From positions 2,232,001-2,296,000 of the forward strand of contig NC_026478.1 of assembly GCF_000328475.2 (NCBI RefSeq): a stretch of 64,000 bases of DNA, read 5' to 3'. The position numbers were made by a program, and so were the translations under genes. The DNA comes from Mycosarcoma maydis. Its lineage: Eukaryota > Basidiomycota > Ustilaginomycetes > Ustilaginales. Positions 1 to 48,453 of this stretch are shown here, piece by piece. Numbering within the stretch: the first letter of the stretch is position 1; every line of letters starts with the position of its first letter. Under the pieces are notes generated by a model, which did not search any database, was not told the origin of the DNA, and saw nothing but the letters and a program-made list of their open reading frames with translations.

Positions 1-1934
1 AGAAACTGAGAGCCAAAATCGATGAAAGATGTTCATGATAATAGTATAGTGGAGCAGCTCGGAGACGTGAGCACAGCGCACAGAGGCAGATCATGCAAAT
101 GTTTGAGCGAAAAAGCCACGGGTCTTGTAGATGGAGTGGCGCGCAATCAGGTACATAGAAGCCTAGCCTCGATTCTCGCCGTTTCATTCGTCGGTGTTGC
201 TCCTCTCCGCATTTCTTGGTCTAAGCGAGGAGAGGAGAAACACGAACTGAGCCAGGTCGGCAGACATCAAAGCAAAGCGAATCACGAATGTAACTATCGT
301 TTCTAAACATGGAGCCAAAATACAATTTGTGTCGGATGGCGATCAGCAAGCCAAGTCTCAGAAAGACAAAGAAACGAAAAAAGAGGTAATCTTGTCTCTT
401 GAAACGATCGCTGGTGGTGCAGCGTCGGAGTGTCGGCTGATACTTGCTTCCGTGATGGTAACGCACAGCCGGCTACACGGTGACTGCGTGGGGGAGAAGA
501 GACCAAGAGGTGCGCATCGCTCAAAGTGAGACAAGGGCAATGCAGCTCTGCACTGAAACACGACACTGTATGTGGCATTCGCATCTGCTGGTAGGTGAGC
601 GGCACTGGCTGCTCTAGCTGCTCTGCCTAATCATGAATCATGAATTGTTCCCACGACTTGCCCACTATCTCGTGTCTCGCCCCGCTACAGTGGTCCCTGT
701 TTTCAGCGCAAACCAAACCGATTTCGCGAAATCGCGAAATCGCGAATCGTGAATCCACGCGCCTCGTCTAGACAGAGTCTAGGCAAAGCTCGGTCAAGTC
801 ACGAGTTGTGAATGGCATTTCCGAGGCTTTGATGGTCGACATTCGTGATTCACGATTGTTCATGTTCTGTCACGCGGCTCTTGAGCCATTCAAGCATTGT
901 GATTCTTTTAGATGCAAGCAGCATCCACTCGATTCTCACTGCCGATCGTTGCCTGTATGCCTCATGAGAAAGGTGCAGTCGCATCCGCATCCTTTCCGTC
1001 GGCAATACCAGAGTAGCGCGTACATTCACCACTCGTGAAGCAAGAATGTTTCACTCAGACAAGTCACGACACTCCTAGCACTTCAAGTACTCTACCACTC
1101 ACGACTATGAGCCGTCCCTCTCACTTTTTGCGCAACTGTCGCTCGTCACCTTGGCTGATTCCCATTCGTGATTTTTCAGATCAGACGCGTCCTTGTCTTT
1201 TGTCACGCCTTCAACAAGCCGTTCACGATTCGTGATTCACGATGGACCGAAACGTTCGACTCGTACTCTTGACTGCGCGAAGCTCAGTGAAGGAGAGAGA
1301 GAGTGGAGATGAATTTCGCCTCGGCTAGATTCGAGATTTGACTTGAGCTCCTTGACGCTTGTTCTTGCCACGAGGCGGCCAACTCACAGACTCGTGACTG
1401 ATTCGTGATTTGTGATTCGTGATTCGTGATTCGTAATCCGTGATCCAGTTGAACGTTTGCTGCCAACTAAAAAAAATATATTCGTGATTGGCAGTCACGA
1501 GTTCGACTATCCATGCCCGCTGCGCACTTACTGCACAATCAGGCAAACCCCTCACAGCCACAGCCTCCATGTCTTTCCTGATTCGCTCCAGACTATACCG
1601 CTGTCACAGGATAAACCTGAGCAAGCTCTGCTTGTGGCTTGCATCCTTGACCGAAAGCAGCCCTGCAAGATGGTTTTCATGCTCCGCTGACGCTCCATTG
1701 ATACCGCATCAGATCAAGCCACGCTTTGCCCATCAATCTCACTTCCGCTTGCTGGCAACCGTCAACTCACATCCACGAAGCTTACTTGACAGAATCGCGA
1801 CTGCATCTCGCCCTTGTTTTCACGCATCTGCACACGTCCAAGACTCCGAAAGATCGCGTTCAAAACAACGTTCGATGAGACACGTGATGACGTGTGATAA
1901 CAGGATACCAGACATTACTCCGTCGTCCTCCATC
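1..1934. other. intergenic spacer rich in TCACGA-type repeats
   Basis: I see no convincing gene here. The open frames are short, overlap on both strands and lack recognisable domains. The segment carries many copies of the ATTCGTGATT / AATCACGAAT motif, densest at 722-756 (CGCGAAAT variants), 1213-1243 and 1395-1445. It follows the stop codon of INO80, so the right part should contain the INO80 3' untranslated region. Confidence 0.6.
1395..1445. repeat. 8-bp period TCGTGATT tandem cluster
   Basis: Several consecutive copies of a unit reading ATTCGTG with period 8 (one TTTGTGAT and one TTCGTAAT variant) are directly visible. The same unit recurs in many other spacers in both orientations, so this is one member of a dispersed family rather than an isolated microsatellite. 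Confidence 0.8.
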
Positions 1935-4900
1935 TCAGTCCAGATCGACTCCCGCCAGCTCATCGACCGTCTTCTTGCGGTGACTCTTCGACTTTCTCTT
2001 TGCAGCTGCTCCTTTCGATGGCGAAGCCAGCTGTTCACCACTTGCCATCAAAGCACCATCATCCAGGCTGAGCGGCGTCATGCGTGGAGAAGCGACCTCG
2101 CTGATACGTCCCCGTTTCGCCCCGCCGCTGCCGCCGCCACCTCCACCAACACTGCGCTTCTTGCTCTGCAGTTGCGGCGTTGTCTCGGCCGTGTCCGTAT
2201 CGGCTTTGCTCGGCGGACGAGCTCCGAAAAAGTCGTCTTCGTCGTCTTCCAGTGACCATGTCGATCCCACGGGCGCAGGCGACTCTACAGCTGCTGCTGC
2301 ACGGTCTTTGTTCAGTCGACGTTTTGCATGAGATGCACGCGCCAGATCCGCCTTCTCCTGAGCTGTCTGTGCTTCCTCTGCCTGTTTCTTGCGCAGCATC
2401 GATTCCGCCAGCTCGTCGTCGTCGAGCAGCAACGACACAATCTCTTGTGGTTTGGCCATGCCCGTCTCGCTGTACGCCTTGGTTCCCACCACAATGTCCT
2501 GTACCTCCTTTTTGTTTCGCGCAAGTCGAACAATGCGCTCGTCAATCGTACCCTTGGTGATCAGTCGATACACCGTCACCTGCTTGGTCTGTCCCAAACG
2601 ATGTGCTCGATCCATCGCCTGCGAGTCGTTCGAAGGGTTCCAGTCGTGGTCGTAAAAGATGACCGTGTCGGCCGCTGTCAGGTTGATACCCAGTCCACCC
2701 GCCCTAGTTGACAGCAAAAAGATAAACAACTCTGGCTTGGTCTGCCAATCGGTCACCATGTCTCGTCGATCGGAAATCTTAGATGCGCCATCCAGCCGCA
2801 GATACTTGTACTGTCGGTAAATCAGGTACTCCTCCATCAGGTCGATCATCCTTGTCATCTGGAAGTAGATCAGCACACGGTGTCCGTTCGCCTTGAGCTC
2901 CCTCAGCAGCACATCCAACTTGGCCAACTTGCTCGAGTCCACAATCAGCTTGTTCATCTGTGGCACCTGCATGCCGTTGTACGGCAACTGGTCGATCGAT
3001 GAGTCGCGCATTACTCCCTGTGGAGGCACTTCTGGCAATTCGCTTTGCAGCTCTTCCACGCGCTTCACTGATTCGCGCCCTTCTGGCGATAGCCCAAACA
3101 GCGTCACCGATACCTGTGCATCGCGACTGAACCGCTCCTGCGCTTGCATAAACGGTCCATCGTTGCTGTACAGCTTGATCGGAGGCGCCACAGCTGGCGC
3201 CACAACAGCTCGCGCTGAGTCCTTGGCCAGATACGAATGTCGCCGATAGTCCGCTGCCACTTCCTCCAGAGGCATCAGAACCGATGGCGAACGCCCCGAC
3301 GTCGTGGGCATCGGACGCAACATCTTGGCCAAGGGACGGACCGAAGCAGCAGCAAACGTGTCATCGCTCGCAAACGCCTCCAGCGAGCGCCAATGGCGTT
3401 CTTCGGCCGCAGCTGCCAGGATCCGTTTGATGCCCGTGCTGTGAAAGGTCTTTTGAGCCTCTGACGGCGAAACTCCAATCAACGGCAACGATGCAAACGT
3501 CGAGCGCTCTTCCTGCAGCGACTCATGAATGTGAGGGGCACGCCAGATGTTGAACAAGTTCTGCAGGTAGCCTGTGTCGAATCCTTTGCGGCTGTTGTGC
3601 CCAGGAATGTCAAAGATGCCGCCCTCCCTCACCAGCAGCTTCGGCACCTGCAGTTCGATCAGCGATGTGGTCGAATCGGGCAAGTTGAGCAGATCGCCTT
3701 CACGCGCCAACGAGCCCGAACGGGCAAAGTCGGCGAGCGCAAAAGGCGCCCGAACGTCAGCTCGCTCGAACAGCTCCGGATGATTGCAAACTTTACGGAA
3801 CTGCATGACGAGGTTCATCAAACTCTTGAGACCAGCCTCATCGTTCGACGTGGCGCGATCCATAAGCTCAGCTACCGAAATGTTGGCGCGTAATCCACGA
3901 TAGAGCATCTTTTGACGCGCGCTGAGGTCGCAAAAGACATCGATCTCGATCTTGTCGCCCAGCTCGTTCTGCACGTTCTTCTTAATACGACGAAGCATGA
4001 ACGGCTTGAGAATCATATGCAGACGTCGAAGCTGGTGTTCGTTGAGTGTGCCCTTCTGTTCGGCATGGCTCTCGATATCCTTAGAGAACCACTCGCTGAA
4101 CTCATCATGAGAATCAAAGAGCGACGGCATGATAAAGTGCAGCAGCGCCCATAGCTCCTGCATCGAGTTCTGCACGGGCGTACCGGTCAGAAGCAGACGA
4201 TTTCGACAGTTGAAGCCCAACAGCGTCTTCCATCGGATACTACTCGACGATTTGATCGCCTGCGCCTCGTCCAGAATCATGTACTGCCACTTGACACGTT
4301 GAAAGTACTTTTCGTCCGACACAACGAGCTGGTAGCTAGTGACGAGCACGTGGAACGGGGCGTCACGATTGTACGAGATCTGCTTGCGGTTCCAGAATTT
4401 TCGCAGCACAGCGCGGTCCTTGACATTACCCCAGTAGGGCAGAGCCTTGAGCGTGGGCACAAACTTGCTGATCTCCTGCTGCCAGTTGTGAAGCGTCGAG
4501 GCAGGTGCAATGACGAGGAACGGGCCCCAAATGTCGTGCACCTCGGCCAGATAGGCCATGAGCGAGATGGACTGCACCGTCTTACCAAGACCCATCTCAT
4601 CGGCGAGGATACCATTGATTCCTTGCTCGTACAGGTTGGCAAGCCAGTTGAGACCTTTCAGCTGGTACTCTTTGAGTTGACATGTGAGCATCTTGGGCTG
4701 CTTGATCTCAGTCTGGCCCATGGACGTCGGGTTCAGGAAGTTCATGTCGTCCGAGTCAAACGCCTTGCCAAGGTCCTTCTCCTCGATCTGCTTGACGGGA
4801 CCGGCGTCCAAGCCCTCGCGCTCTCGAGCGGCGGCTTCGTTGCGCCTTCGCTCCTCTGCTGCTGCCACGTCAAACGCCTGTGCCTTTTCTTTTGCTAGAC

Positions 4901-7667
4901 GCACCGCCTCCTGTGCATTGCGGGCGGCGTGGGCGCGGAGATTGCTCTCGTCTTCGTCATCAAAGTCGATATCGTCGAGCTCGGCAAGCCTGGCTTCAGC
5001 ATCGGCTAGTTCGGAATGTGGATTGATAGGAAGGACAGTGGCATCCGACGGTTGAGCATTTGGATCAATGATCTTGCTGCTTCCAGCTGTCTCCTCAGAT
5101 TCTTCGGCTTCGGCAGTCTTGAGCTTGCTGCCAACGAAATGACTGTAGAGCTCGGTCTGTGAGATGAGGAAATTGAGCTTGCGTGCTTGACGCTTAGCCT
5201 CGCGCATCTCTTCCTCCTTTTTGGCTTTTTCGAGGGCTTCTCGCTCGGCCTTCTTGCGCAGCTCACGCTCTTCCTTCTCGTTTCTCTTCCAGAAGACGAG
5301 CACCTCGCGCATAACTTTGCGCGCACGAAGCTGAACATCTTTGACCGTCTTGTTGTTTCGCGCCGCCCCTCGCTTCGCCTCTCGCTGCACGACGCTCGAA
5401 ATTCTACGCCAGTACATGGTTTTGCTTGAAGCACTCTGGAGCACCGTGCGATACACTTTGGGCACATCGCGCTTGGCAATGGTGGTCCAGATGCGTCGGT
5501 GGGCATCCTCGAGCTGCTGTGCACGACGTGCATCGATAGGTACTTTGCCTGAGGCATCCACATCGAGGGCGAAGCTAACATCGTCTGGCGTAGGGGAAGC
5601 CTGGTGAGAGGCAAATGCGGAGTCATCGCCATCAAAGTTGCCGCCGAAATCGGCCAGTGTCGAGTCCACCTCCGACCCAGGTGCCGGAGACAGAGCTGCG
5701 CCGTTCTCGAGACGGCGCTTCTTGTTTCGAGGATCTGCGGCTGCAGGTTTCCCCTTGCTGCGCTTGAGCTTGATGATGTTGGATTTGGAGCCGTTGCGGG
5801 CAGCAAGGTCGGCAAGAGCGACGTCGTCACTGTCGTCGTCGTCGTCATCATCTGCCTGGAGAAGCCCGTCGTCGTCCGTGCCGCGCCCGCCTTTCTTCTT
5901 TCTCGTGCCCATATTTTGCTGGCCATCGCTGAGTGTGCCAAGAAGCTCGAGATCGATCTCGTGGTCACGTTGCTGACGCACATGATCCTGACGACGCTCC
6001 ATGTCCCTCTGCGAGGCCTCCTGCTGCTCTCGGAGGCGGATCTGTCGGATCACGGCAAAGTAGCGACCCTCGTAGGCCCGTGCGAGACGTCTCTCGACTT
6101 CGACGTGCTTCTCACGCATAGAAGCCACAAAGGCGTCCTCGATGAGGCGCTGGCGCTCTCTGACGTCGAAAATGTAGTCGTCGAGCTCGGTTTGCCAGAA
6201 TGGCTGGTTCTCCTCGTTAGAGAGGTCGCTCTCCCAGCCATCCGGGTCGCGGTTCTTCTTTGCGGGTGGTGGAGGAGCAACGAAACTGGAATTGCTCTTG
6301 GAAGCTGGCAAGGGATTGTTGCGCAGCTTGAGCTGCGTCTTGGCGGGAGCTGGCCTGGCTGTCCCGCCTGCGGAGTCGACCTTGCCGTTGCCGTTGGCTG
6401 CGAGTGAGCTGTCTTCGGTCGCAACTTTTGCGTCCTGAGCCGATAGCCGCTCGCCGTTGTTGAGCGTGTGACTGACCGGTGGCTCGGCAGACATCTGTGC
6501 ATCCAGGGAAGCAGAAGTGGCTTCCTCATGCTTGACGCGAATCAATGGCTCATCGACAGCGTTGGCGGGATGACGAACCGACTTGATGCTGGATTGCTGG
6601 TGAGCTGAGCTGTTTCTGCGCTGCGAGATAGCCGCTTCATCCTCGGGATGTACTGTGTAGTTCACTCTGGCAGCCCCAGCGCGAGCCTCGCTGCCGCGGG
6701 AATAAGCTTGTGAATCGCGCGCAGTGCTGTATGACTGTTCTCTGGCAGGGTCGAACGCAGCACGAGACGCATGACTTGGCTCTTGCGCCGTCGTCGGGTA
6801 CGATTCGTGCTCAGCGGCAATGCTCGACTTTGTAGGGCTCGAATGTACAGATTCGACAGCGCCGTTAGCAGAACGGTCGTTGAGCATGTTGAAGATGGAC
6901 ATGGATGGCCTCGGAGGGCTTTCGGGCTGGTGGACCGGCTCGGCGTAGCGAGCGGCTGACGCTGAGTAGTCGCGCGTCGCATACTCGCTGCTACGCTCAT
7001 GAGCGCTCACGACCGGCTGCGGCGACAGTCGGGGTGATCTGTGAGCTCCGCGACGGTACGAGGGCTGGATTTCGCGGGAGTGTGCATCGTACTCATCTCG
7101 ACGATAGACCGCCGGCTCGTCGATGTGACGATTTTCTGGCGCCGATCGAGCGTCGTCTCGGACGCTGATTCTCTCGTATGCAGCAGGCGCATGTCGGCGC
7201 TCGTGAGGCAGCTCGGAGCGGTAAGAGTCCTGATAGGCGTGGCGAGACGGAGAGGCATAGGGATCCGACCTGGCTTGCTCGAAGGACCTCCTATCGTCGG
7301 CCTCTCGGTAAGCATCCGAGTGCACTGGCTGACGGCGATGTTCTGGCGCATACTCGAGATGTGGTTGTGCTGGAGCGCGACGGTGATGGTAATCCTCCTC
7401 GTAGCGATAAGCGGCTTGAGGCGGCGGTCGACGATAATCTGTTGGAGGCGGAGGAGGTACGCCGTACGATGGGCCAGTAGTGTAGGCAGGGTGAACACGT
7501 TCACGGAGGTGGCGGTCGTAGCCCTGCTCGGGGTAGGCTGTATCGTATGAGCGCGAAGGGATGGAGCTCTTGAGACCCCTCTGGTATGAAGCGTAGCCAT
7601 CCGCTGGGTATGCTGGCGGCCGTTCACCAGCATACCGATAGGGTGCACCTCGATCTTCACCGCTCAT
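1935..7667 (-). CDS. INO80: INO80 chromatin-remodelling ATPase
   Basis: Single-exon gene for 1910 residues, longer than yeast Ino80 because of a disordered N-terminal third rich in Tyr, Arg, Ser and Pro. Residues about 715-850 match the DBINO domain that binds Arp/actin-side subunits. The Snf2 ATPase follows: Walker A DEMGLGKT near residue 1025, DEAQ box near 1133, LLLTGTPVQN near 1160. The helicase C lobe with STRAGGLGINL and AMDRAHRLGQ lies near 1590-1710. About 400 residues separate the two lobes, the long insertion typical of the INO80 class that engages Rvb1/Rvb2. The C-terminus is a Lys/Arg-rich low-complexity tail with a short glycine run. The family slides and edits nucleosomes, including H2A.Z-containing ones, in transcription and repair. 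The ATG at 7665-7667 is the first in frame. The neighbour upstream is divergent and distant. Confidence 0.96.
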   Translation of the reverse strand: MSGEDRGAPYRYAGERPPAYPADGYASYQRGLKSSIPSRSYDTAYPEQGYDRHLRERVHPAYTTGPSYGVPPPPPTDYRRPPPQAAYRYEEDYHHRRAPAQPHLEYAPEHRRQPVHSDAYREADDRRSFEQARSDPYASPSRHAYQDSYRSELPHERRHAPAAYERISVRDDARSAPENRHIDEPAVYRRDEYDAHSREIQPSYRRGAHRSPRLSPQPVVSAHERSSEYATRDYSASAARYAEPVHQPESPPRPSMSIFNMLNDRSANGAVESVHSSPTKSSIAAEHESYPTTAQEPSHASRAAFDPAREQSYSTARDSQAYSRGSEARAGAARVNYTVHPEDEAAISQRRNSSAHQQSSIKSVRHPANAVDEPLIRVKHEEATSASLDAQMSAEPPVSHTLNNGERLSAQDAKVATEDSSLAANGNGKVDSAGGTARPAPAKTQLKLRNNPLPASKSNSSFVAPPPPAKKNRDPDGWESDLSNEENQPFWQTELDDYIFDVRERQRLIEDAFVASMREKHVEVERRLARAYEGRYFAVIRQIRLREQQEASQRDMERRQDHVRQQRDHEIDLELLGTLSDGQQNMGTRKKKGGRGTDDDGLLQADDDDDDDSDDVALADLAARNGSKSNIIKLKRSKGKPAAADPRNKKRRLENGAALSPAPGSEVDSTLADFGGNFDGDDSAFASHQASPTPDDVSFALDVDASGKVPIDARRAQQLEDAHRRIWTTIAKRDVPKVYRTVLQSASSKTMYWRRISSVVQREAKRGAARNNKTVKDVQLRARKVMREVLVFWKRNEKEERELRKKAEREALEKAKKEEEMREAKRQARKLNFLISQTELYSHFVGSKLKTAEAEESEETAGSSKIIDPNAQPSDATVLPINPHSELADAEARLAELDDIDFDDEDESNLRAHAARNAQEAVRLAKEKAQAFDVAAAEERRRNEAAAREREGLDAGPVKQIEEKDLGKAFDSDDMNFLNPTSMGQTEIKQPKMLTCQLKEYQLKGLNWLANLYEQGINGILADEMGLGKTVQSISLMAYLAEVHDIWGPFLVIAPASTLHNWQQEISKFVPTLKALPYWGNVKDRAVLRKFWNRKQISYNRDAPFHVLVTSYQLVVSDEKYFQRVKWQYMILDEAQAIKSSSSIRWKTLLGFNCRNRLLLTGTPVQNSMQELWALLHFIMPSLFDSHDEFSEWFSKDIESHAEQKGTLNEHQLRRLHMILKPFMLRRIKKNVQNELGDKIEIDVFCDLSARQKMLYRGLRANISVAELMDRATSNDEAGLKSLMNLVMQFRKVCNHPELFERADVRAPFALADFARSGSLAREGDLLNLPDSTTSLIELQVPKLLVREGGIFDIPGHNSRKGFDTGYLQNLFNIWRAPHIHESLQEERSTFASLPLIGVSPSEAQKTFHSTGIKRILAAAAEERHWRSLEAFASDDTFAAASVRPLAKMLRPMPTTSGRSPSVLMPLEEVAADYRRHSYLAKDSARAVVAPAVAPPIKLYSNDGPFMQAQERFSRDAQVSVTLFGLSPEGRESVKRVEELQSELPEVPPQGVMRDSSIDQLPYNGMQVPQMNKLIVDSSKLAKLDVLLRELKANGHRVLIYFQMTRMIDLMEEYLIYRQYKYLRLDGASKISDRRDMVTDWQTKPELFIFLLSTRAGGLGINLTAADTVIFYDHDWNPSNDSQAMDRAHRLGQTKQVTVYRLITKGTIDERIVRLARNKKEVQDIVVGTKAYSETGMAKPQEIVSLLLDDDELAESMLRKKQAEEAQTAQEKADLARASHAKRRLNKDRAAAAVESPAPVGSTWSLEDDEDDFFGARPPSKADTDTAETTPQLQSKKRSVGGGGGGSGGAKRGRISEVASPRMTPLSLDDGALMASGEQLASPSKGAAAKRKSKSHRKKTVDELAGVDLD

Positions 7668-8202
7668 GGTCTCGGTACTAGCGGAGACGACGCTATGCTA
7701 GCAGCAGCTTGAAACGTTGAAGCGAAGATGCTGACAAGCACCGGGAGATACGCGATGCACACAAATATCTCGCGGGCGGGATGCCCAAGAGACGCCGCAA
7801 GCACTGATCAGACCGCGCGATACCGTGCGTTTGTCTGCTGTGCCAGAAAATCAAGGCTGGCTGCCTTGAAGCTGGCTTGAGGCTTCGGAGAGTGAGGCTT
7901 CGAGGAGGCGTTGATGGAAGTAGCGCACCGCCTTGACCTTGTGCGGAGGAGAAGAAACCAGAAAAGCGAAATGCACGGCTGCCTGTGGTTAAAGTTTGCA
8001 GACCGAGTGTAAGGGCAAGAAGGTCGCAGAAGTGATTCGTGGTGGTGGTCGCAGAATGTGAAATGCTGGGCGGCGCGGCCGCGAGGAGTTGGTGCGTGTG
8101 CGTGGTGTGTGGCTAAGATGGAATGATGCTGACTGCCGCGCCGCTGAATGGCTGCATCACTGACTCAAGACTGATTCTTTGACTAACTGAGCGGCTGCCT
8201 GA

Positions 8203-8226
8203 TGAGCTTCTGAGCTTCTGAGCTTC
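8203..8226. repeat. triple TGAGCTTC direct repeat
   Basis: Three perfect head-to-tail copies of the 8-mer TGAGCTTC lie upstream of the INO80 start codon. The unit length equals that of the dispersed TCACGAAT repeats although the sequence differs. Its function is unknown. Confidence 0.8.
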
Positions 8227-9180
8227 CGCTTCAGAGGTTTTGCGAACTCATGACTGGTTGAATATTGATAAAATATCGCTACGCTACAGCATTCAAAATT
8301 TAGTTGATATCCACGATGCTCCATCCACAATTCACGATTAACGACGATTCATGATTCGTGATTGGACCGAAGACTGTGCCGCGTTCCTTCGCAATCACCA
8401 ACGCCGGGCTTAGCAGACACGGCTTCAGGGCTTTTGGCTTTTGGCTGACATGTTTACCGTCACTCGTGCCTTGACGCCCCTTGCCTGTTCGCAATCGCGA
8501 ATCGCGAATCACGAATCTCCCGCACACTTCTGACTCTTTCTTTCTCCTAAACGTTGTTACGCACGGTGATCGTGTGAAGGGTGAACCTGTGCCAAATCGA
8601 GTTGGCACCCGATGGATTCACGATTTATATTCTAACACGCTAGCACCATTTCCACGTCCATGTCCACGCTCGACTTGTCACGCTAACGCCCGAGTGGCGC
8701 CGCGCCTCTCTCTGCATCCATGCTTGATTCGTGATTCGTGATTTGGCCCGATTTTCGTTTCGTGTTTGGGCTTGGTGCTGTGTGCTTGGAACGCGACAAC
8801 GGAAAGCAGCTCTGCGCTCCACGCTCGAGCCTCAAGCATCGATCGATTTTCGAATCACAGACAGAAGTGACGGCTGCGACGGCTGCTCAGCCTTGACCCA
8901 TCCAAGCCATGCAGTACTATCTGGGATTGATACCGTATCTTGTGATCAGACGTGTTCTTATATGTGCCGAAACGAGCTCTCGCCAGTGACGACGCCCTTT
9001 ACTTGTATCGCTAGGCTAAATCACAATGGTGAGCCACCGCGCAGCACCATTCACGCATTCGCCTTCCCCGTCTGAGGGTGCGTTCGCCCTGTACGAACTG
9101 ACTGGCCCTTTCTGTCGACAATGTCTGCATCACTGGGTGATCGACCCAGCATGTTCCTGAGGTACGATCTGGCATGTCAA

Positions 9181-11197: not shown

Positions 11198-11210
11198 GTA
11201 TATATAGATA
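11198..11210 (+). promoter_or_regulatory. candidate TATA element of the DDR48-like gene
   Basis: GTATATATAGATA lies about 110 bases upstream of the ATG at 11318. It is followed by a C/T-rich, purine-poor leader (CATCTCAATCTCAATCTCACA before the start). A clear TATA box is consistent with a strongly inducible gene, as expected for a stress protein. The assignment is by position and sequence only. Confidence 0.5.
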
Positions 11211-11317: not shown

Positions 11318-12067
11318 ATGGACGGCTTCATCAACAAAGCTAAAGAGTTCGCTAACTCCGAGCAGGGCAAGGACGCGATCAACAAGCTCACCGGTGGTGG
11401 CAACAACAACTCTTCTTCGGGCGGTTTTGGCTCCAACAACAACTCGTCCTCGGGTGGCTACGGTAGCAACTCGAACGACAACGACAGCTACGGAAGCAAG
11501 AACAACTCGTCCTCGGGTGGCTACGGTAGCAACTCGAACGACAACGACAGCTACGGAAGCAAGAACAACTCGTCCTCGGGTGGCTACGGTAGCAACTCGA
11601 ACGACAACGACAGCTACGGAAGCAAGAACAACTCGTCCTCGGGTGGCTACGGTAGCAACTCGAACGACAACGACAGCTACGGAAGCAACAACAACAACTC
11701 GTCCAGCTACGGCTCGGGCAACAACAACGACTCGGACTCCTACGGTAGCTCTGGTCGCAACAACAACAACAACAACTCGTCCAGCTACGGCTCGGGCAAC
11801 AACAACGACTCGGACTCCTACGGTAGCTCTGGTCGCAACAACAACAACAACAACTCGTCCAGCTACGGCTCGGGCAACAACAACGACTCGGACTCCTACG
11901 GTAGCTCTGGTCGCAACAACAACAACAACAACTCGTCCAGCTACGGCTCGGGCAACAACAACGACTCGGACTCCTACGGATCTGGCGGCCGCGGCGGCAA
12001 CGATTCGTACGGTTCGGGCAACAACGACTCGTATGGCTCGAACAACAACAGCAGCAGCGACTACTAA
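11318..12067 (+). CDS. DDR48-like Asn/Ser/Gly/Tyr repeat stress protein
   Basis: Codes for 249 residues. Residues 1-27 form an amphipathic segment (MDGFINKAKEFANSEQGKDA) of a kind seen in small fungal stress proteins. The rest is low-complexity SYGS/NNN sequence. It has four 21-residue units (NNSSSGGYGSNSNDNDSYGS plus Lys or Asn) and then about four 26-residue units built on SSSYGSGNNNDSDSYGS. The SYGSNN-type composition resembles yeast and Candida Ddr48, a hydrophilic protein induced by DNA damage, heat and osmotic stress. There is no signal peptide or catalytic domain. A TATA box lies about 110 bases upstream. The repetitive codons leave other frames open too, but this frame has the ATG, the non-repetitive N-terminus and the repeat phrasing. 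Orthology to DDR48 rests on composition and is not certain. Confidence 0.8.
   Translation: MDGFINKAKEFANSEQGKDAINKLTGGGNNNSSSGGFGSNNNSSSGGYGSNSNDNDSYGSKNNSSSGGYGSNSNDNDSYGSKNNSSSGGYGSNSNDNDSYGSKNNSSSGGYGSNSNDNDSYGSNNNNSSSYGSGNNNDSDSYGSSGRNNNNNNSSSYGSGNNNDSDSYGSSGRNNNNNNSSSYGSGNNNDSDSYGSSGRNNNNNNSSSYGSGNNNDSDSYGSGGRGGNDSYGSGNNDSYGSNNNSSSDY
11438..11689 (+). repeat. four tandem 63-bp coding repeats
   Basis: Units start at 11438, 11501, 11564 and 11627 and are nearly identical at the DNA level. The last ends in AAC instead of AAG, marking the switch to the next repeat family. Each unit encodes 21 residues, so copy-number change would keep the frame. Confidence 0.92.
11699..11992 (+). repeat. 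78-bp coding repeats, about four copies
   Basis: A partial unit (11699-11758) is followed by full units at 11759, 11837 and 11915. Each begins with six AAC codons and encodes 26 residues. The last unit diverges at its end (GSGGRGG). The copies are almost identical, which suggests recent unequal exchange or homogenisation. Confidence 0.92.
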
Positions 12068-17425: not shown

Positions 17426-17429
17426 GTGT

Positions 17430-17810: not shown

Positions 17811-18017
17811 CAATCGTGAATCACAGATCACGAATCGTGTATTCGTGATTCGTGATTCAGCGACATAGGGGCGAAGAAATTCAAGTGAGTACAGTCACTG
17901 AGTCACGAGTGAGTCGTGAGTGTGTTACACGGTACAGTCACGAGTCACGAGTTGACAGAGTCTTGAGTGCAGAGAGGATTTATTAATAGTCACGAGTGAC
18001 GAGTAATTCGTGATTCG
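17811..18017. repeat. cluster of TCACGAAT and TCACGAGT motifs
   Basis: The left half carries AATCACGAAT/ATTCGTGATT copies, several with period 8. The right half carries the GTCACGAGTCACGAGT form, again with period 8, and inverted copies. Both variants sit side by side here, which supports treating them as one motif family, TCACGA(A/G)T. Confidence 0.75.
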
Positions 18018-18468
18018 GCTCGTGGGCGGCGTGTGTTGGTCTTGCTCTCGTTGTCTGCCGTTGACCCCGCGCACAGACGCTTGCCAACGACGTGAGCTGT
18101 CTCCCCTCTCAAAACTGTGTGTGCGAGCCACCGTCAGAAACGCAGTCTGACGTGGCGATAGTCACGAGTCACGAGTGAACACAGCTGAGAAGAAAGGGTC
18201 CGAGCTTCACCTTGGTGCCCACTCAAGACTCCGTCTGTCAACCTACTTCCTCCTGCGCTACATCATCTAGCTGCCAATTCGAGTCCCGGCGTGACCACCC
18301 CTGTCGAACCACTAGCCTATTCAGAGGGAGACCGTCGGCATGTCGGAATGAAAGGCGATTGACGCGAGGCAGTACCATCTAGCAACGGACTGGTATCCAC
18401 AACCAGAAGTGGGCGACCAGCAGTGTGATCAGCTTCCGCTGCTGCAGCGGTAACCAAACTCTCACACG

Positions 18469-32529: not shown

Positions 32530-32563
32530 AATCACGAATCACGAATCACGAATCACGAATCGC
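32530..32563. repeat. AATCACGA tandem repeat
   Basis: Four perfect head-to-tail copies of the 8-mer AATCACGA and a fifth degenerate copy (ATCGCGC). This is the cleanest example of the dispersed motif in this orientation. It lies about 700 bases upstream of ERG8. Confidence 0.9.
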
Positions 32564-33005: not shown

Positions 33006-33041
33006 TATTCGTGATTCGTGATTCGTGATTCGTGATTCACG
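33006..33041. repeat. ATTCGTGATTCGTG tandem repeat
   Basis: Four copies of ATTCGTG with period 8, ending in an inverted half (ATTCACG), about 200 bases upstream of the ERG8 ATG. The array is the reverse complement of the one at 32530-32563, so the two could pair as an inverted repeat with a loop of about 440 bases. Confidence 0.88.
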
Positions 33042-35118: not shown

Positions 35119-35506
35119 TGTTGGGGCTAGATTAACTTCGTTCCAGTTTGATACCCTACAATGCAAATCAATATAGACTGCACAACATAGCAGCGACTCT
35201 GGCTGCCTGTATGATGCCTGTGCCGAGCCGAGATGAAGTCCAGCCAGAACAGAAAACCGTCAGTTCTGCTGCGCGTCGCGTAAAATGCAGCGCGACTCGT
35301 GACTCACGACTGTCACATGTGTGTGTTGGTCTAAGCCGTGCACTAGAATTCGTGATTTAAATCACGAATGGAGCCAACACTCACACAGACTGTGACTTGC
35401 GACTTATCTTCCGTTCTCTTTCTATGGTTCACGTTCATTCTTGTTGCGCAACTTCCTACGAGACTCGCTCTGCCAGCATCATACTTTCAGAACATGAAGA
35501 ACTGAG
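35119..35506. other. spacer between ERG8 and TERT
   Basis: Short same-strand spacer that must contain the ERG8 3' end and the TERT promoter. Motif copies lie at about 35295-35315 (ACTCGTGACTCACGACTG) and 35349-35370 (an inverted pair, ATTCGTGATTTAAATCACGAAT). No gene is seen. Confidence 0.55.
35348..35369. repeat. near-perfect palindrome made of two TCACGAAT motifs
   Basis: ATTCGTGATTT AAATCACGAAT is a perfect inverted repeat of 22 bases about 140 bases upstream of the TERT ATG. It is built from one motif copy in each orientation. Confidence 0.8.
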
Positions 35507-38500
35507 ATGCAGCCACCCAAATCCAGCTCTGGCGACATCAAGTGCTCGGTGCTCGAACGCCACTTTGCCAAAGTCGTGCCACTTTTGACCTTGATCCGCG
35601 AGCAATTTGGCGTCGAGCTAGGCGCGTCAAGTAGCAAGAATCCTCCAAATGGTCTTTCATTCGAGCGATGGAAGCTTCTTAACATCACCCTAGTCGGAAT
35701 CGATAGTCTCATCGCCGCCCAGACGCCTCCACACCGTAGTAGCCAATGGTTAAGTCAATCAGGACCGTGCACTACCATCCACGAAGCTGTACAGGAAGCG
35801 CAGCTCCAAATCCTAGCCAAGACATCCACACAAACCAGTGCAGTGGCAAGGCGCAGGTACGATGCCTCGAACAACGTACTGTTGAAAGGCTATCGACGAC
35901 CTGATGATCGATTGGAGTCTTTCCGCATTACGTCTACAGGTAGACCGGGCTTGATCAACCTGTATCCGAATTCAATGGTCACTTGCCTGGTTTTGAACAA
36001 GGAGTGGCATTATCTTTGCGAGAGTATCGGTACGGAGCGGTTTGTGTGGCTGCTCGTGAATACGAGCATCTTTGTACCGTTGCTACGTCATGGTGCTGAT
36101 GGTACTTGCTTTGTGCAGCTGACCGGAGCTGCGCTGAGCGAGCGCACCGCGAACTTGGGTGCCGCCGCGAATAGAGCACAGCAAGCTGGTGCTAAGCGCA
36201 AACATGGTGAGGCGGGTGAGCCTACAAGCACGACACGACAACGAGTGGTCATAGGACAAGCCGTCGGCGCAATCCAAACGTCAAAGCCATTGCTAACCGG
36301 AAAGAGGCCAAGGAAGCTCGACCGAGTCACTTCTCGAATCAGTGCGCGCTCAACAAGCTCAGCACCCGAACTCGACATCGCTCGTAGTCAAACAGCGGCT
36401 TCCAGCAGCGTGGACCGAAAGCCTTCCGAGATCATCCTCGTTCGAAGCAGGATGCTCTACGCGCGCGCTTCGCGCAATAAGAACGGCCGCGTCGAAGTAG
36501 GCCTACCCAGCGTACACGTCATACCCCGATCAGCTATCAGAAAGGAGCTCGATAAGGTCCTTCCTTCCTCCACTGCACCCAACAAGCCGACTGCTCGCAG
36601 CAAGCCGTTGACTCGCAACTGCATTGCCAACAGCAAACAAGACGTGAAATCTCCGGAAGCTTTGTTTCACCAGCGACGCACAAGACATCTGGCAAAGTAC
36701 GTCTTTCCTCGTCATTTTGGTCTTCACAACGTCTTCACTGGCGCTCGCGACTACGATACAACTACGCAGCCTTTCCGGGACTACACAGTGAGAGAAGTCG
36801 AGATCAAAGCGTTGGGCGCTGTACGTACGCCAAAAGCACTCAGACCGGTGCTCAAAGTGTTGGCAAAGATCTTGGCAAGGCACGACAAGATCAACTACCG
36901 AGCCTTGTTGGATCGATGCTGTCCTTCAAGAGTTCCGAAGGGAAGACTGACAGCGCAGGAGCGACAACAGATCGTTCAAGACTTGGCTGAAGTCGAGTCG
37001 TTAGAGCCGACTCAGTGTCAAGATGTGCCTGTGAAGCCAACTCGGAAAGAAAGCGGATGTGCAGCGACGTCGACAATACAAACTAAAGTCATACAAGTGC
37101 CAAGCGACGCAGCGCCCGTAAAGGCTCCAGCAAAGGCGACGATAGAGCTGGCGTCTCCGGCGCTCCGCAAACCTCGCTACACCAACTATGCCGTCCCCAC
37201 TGTAGGCCAAGTGGTGCACTTTGTCACAATGACCATCAAGTCTCTTCTACCACGCGACCTGTTTGGCTCGTTGCACAACCAAACGCTGCTACTCGACACC
37301 ATCGCCGATTTCGTCCGGCTGCGAAGATACGAAACATTCAATCTGCACCAGATCGCACAATCCTTCCGCTTCACCGACGTCGATTGGGCACTGCCTGCAG
37401 GCGCGGTCAAAGCCAATCGCCGTCTGACACGCCAAGAAGCCGAATCGCGCAAAGCGCTGGTTTTCGAGCTGCTATACTGGCTCTTTGATGGACTGGTCAT
37501 ACCTCTTCTCCGCACAACCTTCTACATCACAGAGACCGCTGCGTACCGCAACAAAGTACTGTACTTTCGGCAGGACGATTGGCACGTGCTTTCGCGTCCC
37601 GTGTTGGGTCAACTCAAGGAGACCATCTTCGAACCGTTGACTCGCGCCGAAGCGCTGTCAATGATGTCGTCGCGCAAGTTGGGATATTCACACGTCAGAC
37701 TGCTGCCGAAGGAGACGGGCGTCAGGCCCATCGTCAATTTGAGACGCCGTAGTACAAAGCAGGTGCACACGTACCAGCAGGCCTCACAAGATGCAGCCGG
37801 AGCTAAGACGAAAAAGCTCAAGTTGAGCGCGGCGTTGGCCAAGCAGAAGAGGGAGTCGCTGATCCTGGGTCAGTCGATCAACTACATCTTGCAGTCCGTG
37901 TTCCACGTTCTGACCTACGAGAAGAGTCGGATGCTGACAGATGCTGGCGATGAGGATGGAGGTGGTGCATGGAGAGGCGTGGATGGTGTAGGCGCAGATA
38001 TGCTTTCGAGCTCCGTGTTTGGACCTAACGAGATCTATGCGCGGCTCAAGATGTTCAAACAGAAGTTACTGCAGGATCGGTCTCGCGCCGGTGGCGTACG
38101 AGGCAAGGGCAAATTGTACTTTGTGAAAGTCGACGTGAGGTGTGCATTCGATTCGATCGATCAGAGCAAGTTGCTCGAGATCATTGAAAAGATCCTGTGC
38201 AAGGATGGCGCCGACCACGACTCTGAAGGATATCGGATTCATCGCTTTGCCAAAGTCATGGCTTCGGCCACTCACGAGACGAGATCATCTTCGGCTTGCG
38301 CTGGCGTGGCGCCTGTGGGGAAAGCCACGAAACGAGCGTTTGTCCAACTCGCACGGCCAGATTCGGAGCATATCGACTTTTTTTCGCTCGCCTCGACCCT
38401 CGCTGTGGCTCTGCACGATGTGGTGTTCGTCGACGGCGTCAGCTACCGTTACGAATCGACATCGGTGATCCTCAAACTGCTTCGGCAGCACATCACGGAA

Positions 38501-39622
38501 AACCTGATCAAGATCGGTCGAGAATTCTACCGGCAGCGTGTGGGCATTCCGCAGGGGTCGAGTCTATCCACACTGCTCTGTAGTTTCTTCTACGCCGAGA
38601 TGGGCGCGAGAGATGCATTCCTCAGTACACTTGGCTCTGAAAATGCCGGCGCAAAACAGAGAAGCTTGCTGATGCGGTACACAGATGACTTCTTGCTGGT
38701 AACAACGAGCAAGAAGACTGCCAAAAAATTTTACGAGGTCATGCGAAAAGGCCATCCTGACTACGGTTGCTTTATCAGCGCCGAAAAGACGCTCACAAAT
38801 TTCGACCTGATCGATTCGAACTCGACGAGCAGCCCTCTGGTCGCGCGCATCTACAAGGACGAGTTTCCCTGGTGCGGCCTCACAATCAACACGCGAACGC
38901 TCGGTGTGTCGACCGATCTCACGCGCTATGCAGGCCTCGACATACGCGACACTCTGACCGTCGAATACTGCCGTCGACCGGGCGCCGCTCTGGTGGAGAA
39001 GATGATCCAGTCTGTCAAAGCTCGTTGTCACATTCTCTTTACCGATACAGCACTCAATGGCGATACCAGGGTTTACGGTAGCATCTATTCGAGCTTCCTC
39101 GTAGCAGCATTCAAGTTTACCGCCTACCTGGCAGAGTTGAGACGCTTCAAGAGACAGTTCACGCCCGAGTTCCTGTGGAAAGCGATCCAACGCTTGGTCA
39201 GATTTACGAGTAGGTACATTGGCAGTCGTGCATCTAGCGCCAAATTCAAACGACAAGCTATGAACAAGCGCCAAAACTCAGCAAGGCGCGCACCAGCTGG
39301 AAGAGGAGCAGGCAGAGGCAGAGGCAGAGGCACAGGCAGAAGCAGAGGTGCGAGCGCGGCGTGGAAAGTGAGCTGCACGATCCGACCACATTACGTGCAC
39401 TGGTTGGGCTACTCGGCGTTTCGCATGGTGCTGTTACGACAAGCTGGTGCGCGCACCAAGCATGTAGGCATGTTCCGACGTCTCGATAGAGACACTCGCG
39501 AGTCGCTCATAGGTATGATACATACAGCTGCTGCACAGTCGTCGTTTGCTGCCGCCAGGTCAAAGCTCGCCCCTGTAACAGCTAGAGTATTTAGAGACGC
39601 TCAGAAGTCCTTGTCAATCTGA
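35507..39622 (+). CDS. TERT: Telomerase reverse transcriptase catalytic subunit
   Basis: 1371 residues in one exon. The N-terminal part has the TEN-like NVLLKGYRR and YPNSMVTCLVLNKEWHYL blocks (about 123-180). The RNA-binding domain has FPRHFGLHNVFT near 400, a CP-like region near 577 and a T-motif region (ELLYWLFDGLVIPLLRTTFY) near 650. The RT domain has VRPIVNLRRR (motif 2), FVKVDVRCAFDSID (motif A, first catalytic Asp near 875), GIPQGSSLSTLLCSFFYAEM (motif B', near 1013), YTDDFLLVTT (motif C, Asp pair near 1060) and FPWCGLTINT (motif E). About 135 residues separate A from B', the IFD insertion typical of telomerase. The C-terminal extension holds an unusual GRGAGRGRGRGTGRSRG run near 1262-1282. 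All three catalytic aspartates are present, so the enzyme is predicted active. It extends telomeric DNA from an RNA template. Confidence 0.96.
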   Translation: MQPPKSSSGDIKCSVLERHFAKVVPLLTLIREQFGVELGASSSKNPPNGLSFERWKLLNITLVGIDSLIAAQTPPHRSSQWLSQSGPCTTIHEAVQEAQLQILAKTSTQTSAVARRRYDASNNVLLKGYRRPDDRLESFRITSTGRPGLINLYPNSMVTCLVLNKEWHYLCESIGTERFVWLLVNTSIFVPLLRHGADGTCFVQLTGAALSERTANLGAAANRAQQAGAKRKHGEAGEPTSTTRQRVVIGQAVGAIQTSKPLLTGKRPRKLDRVTSRISARSTSSAPELDIARSQTAASSSVDRKPSEIILVRSRMLYARASRNKNGRVEVGLPSVHVIPRSAIRKELDKVLPSSTAPNKPTARSKPLTRNCIANSKQDVKSPEALFHQRRTRHLAKYVFPRHFGLHNVFTGARDYDTTTQPFRDYTVREVEIKALGAVRTPKALRPVLKVLAKILARHDKINYRALLDRCCPSRVPKGRLTAQERQQIVQDLAEVESLEPTQCQDVPVKPTRKESGCAATSTIQTKVIQVPSDAAPVKAPAKATIELASPALRKPRYTNYAVPTVGQVVHFVTMTIKSLLPRDLFGSLHNQTLLLDTIADFVRLRRYETFNLHQIAQSFRFTDVDWALPAGAVKANRRLTRQEAESRKALVFELLYWLFDGLVIPLLRTTFYITETAAYRNKVLYFRQDDWHVLSRPVLGQLKETIFEPLTRAEALSMMSSRKLGYSHVRLLPKETGVRPIVNLRRRSTKQVHTYQQASQDAAGAKTKKLKLSAALAKQKRESLILGQSINYILQSVFHVLTYEKSRMLTDAGDEDGGGAWRGVDGVGADMLSSSVFGPNEIYARLKMFKQKLLQDRSRAGGVRGKGKLYFVKVDVRCAFDSIDQSKLLEIIEKILCKDGADHDSEGYRIHRFAKVMASATHETRSSSACAGVAPVGKATKRAFVQLARPDSEHIDFFSLASTLAVALHDVVFVDGVSYRYESTSVILKLLRQHITENLIKIGREFYRQRVGIPQGSSLSTLLCSFFYAEMGARDAFLSTLGSENAGAKQRSLLMRYTDDFLLVTTSKKTAKKFYEVMRKGHPDYGCFISAEKTLTNFDLIDSNSTSSPLVARIYKDEFPWCGLTINTRTLGVSTDLTRYAGLDIRDTLTVEYCRRPGAALVEKMIQSVKARCHILFTDTALNGDTRVYGSIYSSFLVAAFKFTAYLAELRRFKRQFTPEFLWKAIQRLVRFTSRYIGSRASSAKFKRQAMNKRQNSARRAPAGRGAGRGRGRGTGRSRGASAAWKVSCTIRPHYVHWLGYSAFRMVLLRQAGARTKHVGMFRRLDRDTRESLIGMIHTAAAQSSFAAARSKLAPVTARVFRDAQKSLSI

Positions 39623-40260
39623 ACATCCTGAGTGTCATTTGTGTCAACGTGCCAGCTGCATTCATGATTGTGCGCTTGGGAATGGTGGATCGAGTCACGA
39701 GTGGGCATCCTCGCTTGGCCATCGTCATCAACATCGTTACTTGTTGTTCCGCCCCTTTGTTCTCAGACCCTTTGTTCTCAGACCCTTTGTTCTCATACCC
39801 TCGTGCATGCGCATATGCGTGTACACACTTTAGGCTTGGCTGTGTATATACTTTCCACTTCCGTGAGAGCTTGCAATCGAACCCCCAACTCTCTCAGCCG
39901 CACACTCTGAGAACACACTCGTGACTTGTAGCGTCGTTGAACCGTGCAACGTGCAAGTCGTGAGTCGTGAGTCGTGAGCGGCAACGTGCAAAATCAGGAG
40001 GGGTGTCAGATCGATTATTCGTACACGTTGAAGTTTTCGCACACGGCATGCAGCTTTGTGCTTCGTGCTTGACGCTTCGGCGTTGGTCAGGCTAAATCAG
40101 ATTCGTGATTCGTGATTTGTGATTTACGAATCGTGAGTTTGTGCTGAGACCAACACTCACGACTCACGACTTAGGCTCCCTGCAGCGCGCACCAAAACCG
40201 GACGCAAGTTGACTGTCTTGCGAAGTCGCAGATGGGGTCTGCACATGCGGTCATGGTGTC
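39623..40260. other. spacer between TERT and CDK11
   Basis: Contains three 15-bp tandem repeats at 39753-39797 and motif clusters at 39956-39979 (GTCGTGA form), 40100-40138 (TTCGTGAT form) and 40154-40171. No gene is seen. Confidence 0.6.
39753..39797. promoter_or_regulatory. three tandem 15-bp repeats with pheromone-response-element-like cores
   Basis: Three copies of CCCTTTGTTCTCAGA (the last ends ATA). Read on the minus strand, each contains ACAAAGGG, which matches eight of nine bases of the smut pheromone response element ACAAAGGGA bound by the HMG protein Prf1; the ninth base here is G or T. Copies are spaced exactly 15 bp apart, about 470-510 bases upstream of the CDK11 ATG. Function is inferred from similarity only. 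Confidence 0.45.
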
Positions 40261-42150: not shown

Positions 42151-42316
42151 CATGGCGCTTGCCAGTCGGCTACACAGCACAGCATAGCAGAACGTGGCAT
42201 AGCAGAGCATGGCGATTTCCAGCTGTACTTTTACCATTTCTGTCTTGTTCCGACATGTGCGTGGCCGAATCATGAATCTTGATCGTGTCAAGCAGGGTGG
42301 TGCTAGAAAGGCAACC

Positions 42317-43599: not shown

Positions 43600-44625
43600 T
43601 GCGGCTTAGGATGCTCGCTGTGAGACTTCCAGGTGGTAAAGTGGGGTGCACGACAATGAATCAAGGTCAAGTGCTTCCAACGTGTGTGGCAGAGGAGATT
43701 TTCCGCATGTGTCTGAAGCAGTCAGATGTGGAAGACGGTGTCCGAGCAACATGAGCACTCCTCTGTACCCTGTTTGATTCTGACTGTCGGAGCAGACTAC
43801 GCAACAGTCGGAGAGCCTCAAGGTGAAAAACAATCCAGAGTTGCAAAGGCACAGGACTGTGCTGAATACGCCAAGGGCTTGATCAGCTTCGTGGCAGCTT
43901 GCAAAAGCGGACGGGAAGGCCGAAATCCAATCACGTCGTTGGTTCCATCCTGACTTTGACGAAAAGCGATACGGAAGCGAAGGTTTGGACTCGGATGGCT
44001 CAACTTAGCTCGATTCATCACACATCATGCTCCCCAATTCAAGCGAACAAGTGAACAAGTGGGCGATCAAGGATCGGCAGTGGTAAGCGCTTTGGCTACG
44101 CCGGCATGGGCACGGTTGTAATGCACGGGAAAGTGGGAGCTGAAGTGAGGTTCACATGGAGCCAAAGTGGTGAGACCAGAAAGGGAAAGCTCGCTCAGTG
44201 AAGCTCGATCAGCAATCACAAGATGCTCCACTTTGTTCGGTGCCCATTCATTGTTGTCCTGGACCGTGCGATAGAGCAGCGAACAAGAGAATGGAGACAC
44301 TGGTCGGATCACAGAGCAAGCAGAAGATGGTTGTTTTCCCGTCTGTTCCAAGTGCGGCTTCACCGATACGGTGCGGAAAGGCGGTAAGCAAAGCTAAACT
44401 TGATCCTGTATCTAGTCAGCCTCAGTCACTGAGTCGCATGAGCTTACGAGTCAACGTTAGAATCAAGCTTTGGCAATGCAGGAGGGGGTTGAGACAAAAT
44501 GACAAATGAAACGGATGGGAACGACACGATGTGATCTGCAAGAGCAAACCTACTAGTAAATGAGTGTGTGACTGAATCAAAAGATATGATTCGAAGCGAC
44601 GGAAAGCGGGTGGAATGCTACTAGA
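43600..44625. other. spacer between two minus-strand genes
   Basis: About 1 kb holding the leader and promoter of the RG-rich gene and the 3' region of the SRF1-like gene. Open frames are short and lack protein character. Unlike most spacers it has few TCACGAAT copies. Confidence 0.5.
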
Positions 44626-46764: not shown

Positions 46765-48453
46765 GTTGTCGACCGTTGCTATTCGGCCTCGTCCCCGAGT
46801 CCGTGGTTGAGTGGTAACCTGGCAAGAGCTCAGGGTCAAATCGTCAAGATGAAGCCACAGCCACAATCGTGGGAGAAATGATTTGGAAAGGAGGCGCTCG
46901 TGGGGTCGTTGCTGATTGGTTCTGCTTCTATGCGTTGTGGTTGGTGTTGATGGAGGGGCGTTAACGTCGCGGTGGCGGACCGTGAAGAAAGATGATCCGG
47001 ATGTGAGGAGAAGATAGGCTCAGATAGTCAGGGGGGAAAAGGTTGACAAATGACGAATGTGGCATATTTTGGAATTCACGAATTGAGTTGGGAACGACCC
47101 AAATAGCACGCAGCCAAACAGTCATGAGGCGACACACAGCCCGGCTCCAGGTCGGCTAGTCCCGAGTATCTCGCCAAAAAAAACAGTACATGCATCTGGC
47201 TGCATCACGTACAGCCAACTCGTTGCCAAGACACCTCATCTCGTCCTGCTACCAAGTCAGTTGGCGATCCCCGCCTCGTGGCTCGATCTTAGTGTAAGCT
47301 CCCACACCCAATACTACTAACATGTACCTTTCGTGACAGTTTTCGAAACGAGTACAAGCACTGCCGCTCGTGCGATACCTTGTCGATTCAATTCCAACGC
47401 CGGTGCTGCATACTCGAGCAAGTGAGCATCCGGTTCTTTGAGCCTGAAATGGCCTTTTCGTTCCGGTTCAGCGCGCCTTTACGTGTAGAGATCCTTCATC
47501 AACCTGGAGAAAAAGCTCTCTTCGAAATGGCGCAGTCACGAGTGTGAGTGGAGTAGGCTCATGCGAAAGAACGTCCACAGTAATCTATACACGATCCACG
47601 GATAGAAAGAAAATACGATTCATTTAAATCATGCAAAAGCAGAGAATTGACGTAGCGTGATATACGAATCGTAAATCACGAATCACGAATAAGTTACAGT
47701 CACGAGTACGTTAGAAGAGACGCGTGTTGTAGATCACAGATCCTTCAAAAAAGTAACATGTGAATCTTCCCACATCTCTATTCCCCACATCCTTAAATCG
47801 GCTACCATCAGGAATGCTAAGTTTTTCAAACTGAGCAATTCAAACATGGGAGTCGCTCTCACTCATAGCATGGTTTGTGGCTGTTCTAAAATCAGTGGTA
47901 TAGGAAGCAGGTGTGATGAGGATGATATTTTGCGGGATCTGGGCGAGCGTACAAGTGTATACAGAGAACTGGGACCATGTAGCGAATCTGTTAGATGTAT
48001 GATCTGAAAGGCATCGAGCCAAGACGAACGGAGGAACCAGAGTAGAGGAAGGCTCGCATCACAGCAGGAGCCAGAGAAGCCAAAGATAAAGTGAGAAATA
48101 CTATGACGAGGGTCACACCAACGTCACAATGCAAGTAAAGGTCATGGATGGATCGAGAAGCGGATGCGAGAGAACCGCGAGGAAGAGCAAGAAGGGTGCG
48201 GGCGTAGCGAAAGATGCAGGATCGTCTTGACGTCGTGCGTCGAGGCCAAGCACGAAGAGGGACGAAATATTGGACGTGGTATGCATGGTGATGAGACCAT
48301 GTCGACGACCTTTTGGAGAAGCGTCACGCTTCAATATGGGACAACGAGGAGTCAAATCAGTCCATGTCTTCCTGTCACGTCTACCGAACAGCACGAGAAG
48401 TGGCGAAAGATAAGTCTGATTGGAACTGCTCCGATCCTGAGACCGACAGAGAA
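46765..48453. other. 1.7-kb spacer between the SRF1-like and CCCH genes
   Basis: Between two minus-strand genes. It includes the leader of the SRF1-like gene, a short A-run near 47175, and motif copies at about 47665-47708 (AATCACGAATCACGAAT and GTCACGAGT). The left end should also contain the SRF1-like promoter. Nothing protein-like is seen on either strand. Confidence 0.55.

Follow-up and report, generated by a model that had tools for sequence, protein, structure and literature searches.

A repeat unit built on a three-base duplication

The intergenic DNA of a 64,000-bp stretch of contig 1 of Mycosarcoma maydis (Ustilago maydis), C1:2232001-2296000 of an assembly of 19,664,356 bp in 27 contigs and referred to here as the window, is studded with copies of a short repeat centred on TCACGA. 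The original prediction had described it as a tandem motif of period 8, in two variants, which concentrates in the spacers between genes. Open reading frames (ORFs) of at least 150 amino acids (aa) occupy 69% of the window, and all 36 copies of AATCACGAAT, the commonest 10-mer in it, lie outside them, in agreement with a concentration in spacers. The observation was confirmed in part: each of the 13 intervals listed overlaps at least one intact copy, but the actual period is 7, eight being an off-by-one reading. Each unit consists of a fixed 4-mer between two exact direct copies of a 3-bp sequence, XYZ-CACG-XYZ or XYZ-CGTG-XYZ, in which XYZ is mostly ANT.

We counted units in a 264-kb sample from 21 contigs (1.3% of the genome), composed of the window and 20 stretches of 10 kb on contigs 2 to 21 (each 300001-310000), picked for their location irrespective of what they contain. 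As a proxy for coding sequence we took ORFs of at least 150 aa; they cover 69% of the sample and divide it into 181,321 bp of coding and 82,679 bp of noncoding sequence, introns and short genes falling into the latter. The chance baseline was provided by Markov models of order 1, 3 and 5 with 15 simulations each. An XYZ-type site is defined by identical 3-mers around CACG or CGTG, an ANT-type site is one whose XYZ is ANT, and an isolated core is a TCACGA with no other within 40 bp, of which the noncoding sample contains 162.

Identical 3-mers flank 462 of the 1288 noncoding CACG or CGTG, against means of 14, 22 and 52 under Markov order 1, 3 and 5 (order 3: 21.8), the order-5 model already absorbing part of the repeat signal. 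For ANT-type sites, 341 were found in noncoding sequence where the order-3 mean is 4.9. Duplications of 1 to 7 bases were present at 231, 93, 462, 6, 3, 1 and 1 of 1,294 to 1,277 noncoding sites. Length 3 is hence enriched 22.8-fold over 1/64, whereas lengths 1, 2, 4, 5 and 6 reach only 0.7- to 3.2-fold, the highest of these values resting on 1 to 3 sites. The rule extends beyond ANT: after sites with ANT on either side had been excluded, 121 of 745 CACG stood between identical triplets, with 14.0 expected.

The isolated cores show the same anatomy. In 121 of the 162, the core has the same base on both sides (A-A 42, T-T 39, G-G 25, C-C 15), and among those 121, bases seven apart are identical at three adjacent positions in 107, 121 and 105 cases, the middle value being 121 by selection, and just outside in 34 and 33, which is background. 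This identity over three positions with sharp edges therefore defines the unit as a 3-bp direct duplication around CACG. A direct duplication of one fixed length, here 3 only, and of arbitrary sequence around a few remnant bases is the form expected of an excision footprint. G or C beside the ANT triplet is commoner than A or T; among 193 single ANT units the flanks are C..G in 25, compared with a frequency of 6.2% for 4,659 noncoding ANT, but G..C in 31, and C-ANT-G is a weak candidate for a preferred target.

The window holds 108 XYZ-type sites (Table 1 lists the main places). Of the 80 that are ANT-type, 75 are noncoding; among the 28 non-ANT sites, a few will be chance occurrences. Among the intervals of the original prediction, Tandem Repeats Finder reported period 8 only at 724-746 (TCGCGAAA). 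Its A and G variants both exist, but the real number is four ANT variants, AAT, ATT, AGT and ACT, in addition to non-ANT triplets, and the inverted pairs that it described are present as facing units.

Table 1. Intact units and arrays at the main places in the window.
Feature	Position in window
Isolated unit AAT-CACG-AAT	280..289
Unit AAT-CGTG-AAT adjoining the period-8 stretch	745..754
Two-unit mixed array ATT-CGTG-ATT-CACG-ATT	841..857
Unit ATT-CGTG-ATT, within the predicted interval 1213-1243	1228..1237
Cluster of seven intact units, triplets ACT, ATT, ATC, AGT	1390..1502
Two units, ATT-CACG-ATT and ATT-CGTG-ATT	8330..8363
Unit AAT-CACG-AAT adjoining AATCGCG units	8507..8516
Two-unit array (ATTCGTG), period 7	8727..8743
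Dense cluster of nine intact units, triplets AAT, ATT, AGT	17812..18015
Two-unit array (AGTCACG)	18160..18176
Four-unit pure array (AATCACG)4AAT, period 7	32530..32560
Four-unit pure array (ATTCGTG)4ATT, period 7	33007..33037
Two-unit mixed array ACT-CGTG-ACT-CACG-ACT	35295..35311
Two facing units ATT-CGTG-ATT / AAT-CACG-AAT (predicted inverted pair)	35348..35369
Two intact units (AGTCGTG), period 7	39956..39972
Two-unit array (ATTCGTG)	40101..40117
Two-unit array (ACTCACG)	40155..40171
Two-unit array (AATCACG) and separate unit AGT-CACG-AGT	47674..47707

Among the ORFs of the window, one of 1,371 aa (35507-39622, plus strand) carries telomerase RNA-binding, reverse transcriptase and TERT C-terminal domains and is the telomerase catalytic subunit. 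Another, of 1,910 aa (1935-7667, minus strand), has SNF2, DBINO and Helicase_C domains, a combination which we take to be that of INO80 remodellers. A 291-aa ORF (11434-11979, plus strand) without a Pfam match at E 0.001 contains 63-bp and 78-bp tandem repeats that are 98-100% alike; its product is probably a recently expanded low-complexity protein.

Genome-wide abundance and position relative to genes

Genome-wide, AATCACGAAT occurs 8,759 times (4,320 + 4,439), whereas its reversed control occurs 7 times; AATCACGATT, mismatched in only the middle base of the second triplet, is found 417 times. The sample, with 124 copies, predicts about 9,200 AATCACGAAT, close to the number found. The Markov-3 and reversed-word counts exclude chance as the source of the XYZ- and ANT-type sites. 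With the Markov-3 means subtracted, extrapolation gives genome totals of about 26,000 for ANT-type units and about 33,000 for those of XYZ type, and ANT-type units were present in all 20 stretches as well as in the window. The top 10-mers of the noncoding sample are AATCGTGAAT (132) and AATCACGAAT (119), poly-A reaching 40, and intact XYZ-type sites span 4,312 of the 82,679 noncoding bases (5.2%, chance ones included).

Coding sequence is nearly free of the units, with 10 ANT-type sites against 341 in the smaller noncoding part. Upstream of ORFs of at least 200 aa, the nearest 100 bp contain 1.9 XYZ-type sites per kb and the interval at 200-700 bp about 7-13 per kb; on the downstream side, the density rises from 3-4 per kb within 200 bp of the ORF to about 7-8 per kb at 200-500 bp. 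Convergent, divergent and tandem spacers contain 3.1, 6.1 and 7.2 sites per kb, respectively. Purifying selection could suffice for the near absence from coding sequence because seven added bases break the reading frame, and the coding/noncoding contrast is equally expected from selection against such 7-bp frameshifts. Some preference for open promoter DNA may also contribute. A strand-asymmetric distribution along contig 1 was considered and rejected; the match list favours forward copies, and the reverse array at window position 33007 is absent from it.

These data bear on the suggestion that TCACGA is the core of a binding site for a transcription, replication or chromatin factor, selected in promoters. 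The noncoding concentration, the high density about 200-700 bp upstream of ORF starts and the lower density in convergent spacers would suit such a site, but the density drop beside ORFs on both sides, together with the cost of frameshifts, would explain the same distribution. Moreover, a protein would not need the left base to equal the right base on the same strand, for any base, and a dyad would need the complement and not identity, whereas the flanks, neither independent nor complementary, are identical in 121 of 162 cores. Because the flanking bases are equal whatever the base, and because arbitrary triplets are duplicated, always over exactly 3 bp, the binding site offered in the original prediction is not supported, and we regard it as hardly credible.

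CACG is by far the main class of insert, albeit not the only one: CACA, CGCG and CACAG follow the same 3-bp rule when CACG units are masked. We excluded CAC and CAG inserts from the evidence as simple repeats confound them. Inserts with one change number 141 against 342 intact ones, which suggests about 9% change per base if a single age is assumed, a crude figure. CGCG and CATG inserts (18 and 19 sites) were considered as proof that two mismatches in a heteroduplex had been repaired separately, and this was rejected, as they lie within the range of other single changes (CACA 34, CAAG 17, CGTC 15). The 5-base insert CACAG/CTGTG is flanked by identical 3-mers at 27 of 259 sites (unmasked) and by identical 4-, 5- and 6-mers at 1, 0 and 0; it gives 8-base units and looks like either another trimming of the ends or a second element. 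Separately, AGTC lies between identical 4-mers 18 times against 5.2 expected (units masked), an excess unrelated to the CACG class.

Arrays, empty sites and the proposed origin

Period-7 arrays number 80 in the noncoding sample, and the four ANTCACG-type units make up 53 of them, while coding sequence contains a single period-7 array, of another unit. Counted by intact units, the noncoding runs comprise 299 of one, 45 of two, seven of three, four of four, one of six, two of nine and one of thirteen. The original prediction that copies stand often head to tail is therefore right in that arrays exist, but 299 of 359 runs are single units. The two-unit arrays divide into 27 pure and 18 of mixed orientation, not far from even; multi-unit arrays are mixed in 21 of 60, and all four arrays of 6-13 units are pure. 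Genome-wide, the mixed-orientation 17-mer AATCACGAATCGTGAAT occurs 655 times and the pure two-unit word 1,567 times, their reversed controls 0 times. We read the short arrays as independent nested events and the long ones as products of slippage.

Replication slippage alone, with (ANTCACG)n as a plain heptanucleotide microsatellite and the isolated copies as decayed or nascent arrays, would account for the purity of the four longest arrays and for the agreement of adjacent units in 82 of 104 pairs. Pure arrays of one heptamer are also found in prokaryotes: a GTDB scan with AATCGTGAATCGTGAATCGTGAAT returned at least 118 stretches with arrays, and in 126 bacterial arrays found with three pure units as seeds, ATTCACG accounted for 756 of 1,002 units. 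These (ATTCACG)n arrays (L061-L178) lie in unrelated bacteria, several at contig ends. In viral contigs, searched with five 20-base words, three units seen here matched 12, 17 and 2 stretches, compared with 8 and 5 for two control heptamers, which is no clear excess. However, slippage leaves unexplained why most noncoding runs are single units with three-base identity and sharp edges, and why many unrelated triplets share one insert. Nor can it reverse an insert where it stands, although mixed orientation is found in 18 of the 45 two-unit arrays and at the 655 genome-wide sites, and unit direction within arrays is not constant as in a microsatellite. Furthermore, isolated XYZ-type sites at 118 prokaryotic array loci (854 kb, among the matches listed) number 175 against about 131 expected (1/64), close to expectation, and 22 of them are ATT, the unit searched for. 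Slippage as the only process is thus quite improbable. Heptamer arrays as such are commonplace, and what distinguishes this genome from the prokaryotic array loci is the isolated duplication.

We consider it probable that the units are excision footprints of a cut-and-paste DNA transposon with an ANT duplication and CAC(G) ends, that the same places were hit repeatedly, and that the long pure arrays arose by slippage. Among the interpretations first offered, a very short mobile-like repeat came nearest because the anatomy, a target-site duplication and a fixed 4-mer, is that of an excision scar. The element would insert into a trinucleotide, usually ANT and in the majority of cases next to G or C, and three bases would be duplicated; excision would leave both triplets and four end bases, a net gain of 7 bp. 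The result would be ANT-CACG-ANT if the left end supplies the bases and ANT-CGTG-ANT if the right end does; the four bases may come from one end, as with the 4-nt stagger of Tc1/mariner-like elements, or as three and one (CAC+G, C+GTG). Repeat visits would nest scars in register, producing period-7 arrays in which the triplet stays the same while the insert may point either way; ordinary slippage would then lengthen some of these into long pure arrays. For the maker of the units we infer a transposase, whose element would have carried the CAC(G) ends.

The presence and absence of a unit can be compared between two paralogous DDE_1 loci, L035 (C11) and L036 (C21), which are 77% identical over 2,045 columns with three 7-bp gaps. 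At the first gap, L036 reads C-ATT-CGTG-ATT-G and L035 GATTG; at the second, L036 reads C-AAT-CATG-AAT-G and L035 CAATG, each with a single triplet; the third gap is unrelated. Hence, two of the three 7-bp gaps are related empty sites, although the direction of change is not proved by them.

Several results weigh against the excision of a transposon. Neighbouring units point the same way in 82 pairs and opposite ways in 22, and because of this excess independent visits alone are insufficient for the arrays. No more than two related empty sites came to light, one of them with CATG; the remaining paralogue pairs compared contained no such gap, and the loss of 7 bp from between direct repeats would give the same picture. 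In four copies of a copia element, which are about 99% identical to each other, the shared parts (2.0-3.5 kb) have no XYZ-type site; the four such sites at the copia locus L048 all lie outside the shared parts. The freedom of these parts from units argues against very recent activity, although they are short and partly coding.

The search for a source element weighs on the same side. Profile matches in the genome comprised 4 DDE_3, 13 DDE_1, 3 DDE_Tnp_4 and 46 RVT_2; the scan for element ends covered the window, L001-L028 and the transposase loci, with most of the assembly outside it. The window and L001-L028 contained no pair of CACG ends that were flanked by the same triplet and matched at 12 or more of 16 inner bases, and around 11 transposase loci there was no convincing CACG...CGTG element. 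Weak end pairs near transposase loci matched at best 14 of 25 bases, a value for which no null was computed; a few had CACG ends, and we take these for footprints. The 238 ANT-CACG sites without a second triplet (323 kb) shared no continuation except other footprint words, at most 11 of 238. No terminal repeat starting CACG was found for the DDE_3 gene without stops or its relatives, one of which, on C19, has TACAGCGCGCG ends. Eight of 17 DDE_3/DDE_1 loci were inspected, none with convincing CACG ends; end comparisons of DDE_3, DDE_1 and PIF/Harbinger copies likewise gave none, and the DDE_Tnp_4 loci L045 and L046 yielded no ends. For hAT, Plavaka and Transposase_21, matches were lacking here but also in the control genomes, and these searches are therefore uninformative on absence. 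A source element is either extinct here, or rare and outside the sample, or never existed as such.

L044 (C2) is a PIF/Harbinger-type element with 13-bp AGAGGTTTTGGTC inverted repeats (AGAGG ends) and a second ORF on the other strand; L045 (C7:3319), near a contig end, is a 91% similar copy of it over 861 bp. L029 (C10:466924) encodes a 360-aa DDE_3 transposase without stops or visible terminal repeats, has footprints on both sides, and is possibly retained by the host.

The failure to find a source element would fit a process without any mobile element, in which ANT is cut with a 3-nt stagger by a host nuclease, or by an immobile transposase that the host has retained, and repair always inserts an identical set of four bases. 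The genome keeps transposase-like ORFs with no visible terminal repeats, for example the DDE_3 ORF at C10:466924 and DDE_1 genes. However, a constant 4-mer that can be inverted between strands would need a template, which the ends of an element would supply, and the CACAG insert, obeying the 3-bp rule at 27 of 259 sites, looks like another trimming of similar ends. We regard such a process as unlikely.

A wider proposal, which we put forward tentatively as possible, is that the gaps between genes record tens of thousands of visits by a nearly fully excised transposon, or by a still-present, host-retained transposase cutting ANT sites without an element, and that scars in register create a heptamer microsatellite class, the origin of the commonest intergenic words. 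If so, much past DNA transposition would have been missed, since surveys look for elements. Past transposition in promoters could then be counted from the scars, the abundance of a heptamer repeat would have its origin explained, and each scar would be a possible presence/absence marker between strains.

Comparison with known systems

Smut genomes are called poor in transposable elements, with about 1% for U. maydis (PMC4466345), and a microsatellite survey of a related smut covers units of one to six bases only (PMC6974468). Among the papers listed by literature searches, whose coverage left out most subscription journals, there was no description of a carpet of such scars, and in searches with the sequence words the papers listed gave a primer and two articles unrelated by title.

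Heptameric repeats are described as abundant in bacteria (PMC4692102). They resemble the present arrays in the period of 7 and partly even in the unit, but differ in that the 20 commonest units of the bacterial arrays that we seeded do not include the inverted one and in that isolated 3-bp duplications around CACG stay near background.

Tc1/mariner elements (IS630-Tc1-mariner) leave excision footprints of 2-4 bp (PMC7913693) and usually duplicate TA (PMC7325037). The units share with them a target duplication flanking a few terminal bases; unlike them, they duplicate 3 bp, mostly ANT, and not TA. The literature searched mentioned neither so many scars nor nesting of them into period-7 arrays. 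TBE elements of Oxytricha, in the same family, make a 3-bp ANT duplication with a non-random adjoining base (PMC6765146, PMC3731211), as seen here. However, their programmed excision is described as precise, removing one ANT, whereas both ANT and four bases stay here, and their ends are described as carrying telomeric repeats, not CACG.

Pangu, of the PHIS / PIF-Harbinger superfamily and reported from three basidiomycetes among others, also has an ANT duplication (PMC4482050). The 3-bp ANT target duplication is common to both, but the terminal repeats of Pangu are described as usually starting AG or GG and the remnant here is CACG/CGTG; the PIF/Harbinger-type L044 of this genome starts AGAGGTTTTGGTC, not CAC. 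The combination of ANT and CACG fits neither Tc1/mariner nor Pangu fully; our claim is that the units work like an imprecise cut-and-paste excision, and we assign them to no family. Within the literature searched, ANT duplications look like the known part, through TBE and Pangu, and a genome-wide carpet of 7-bp scars looks like the new one.

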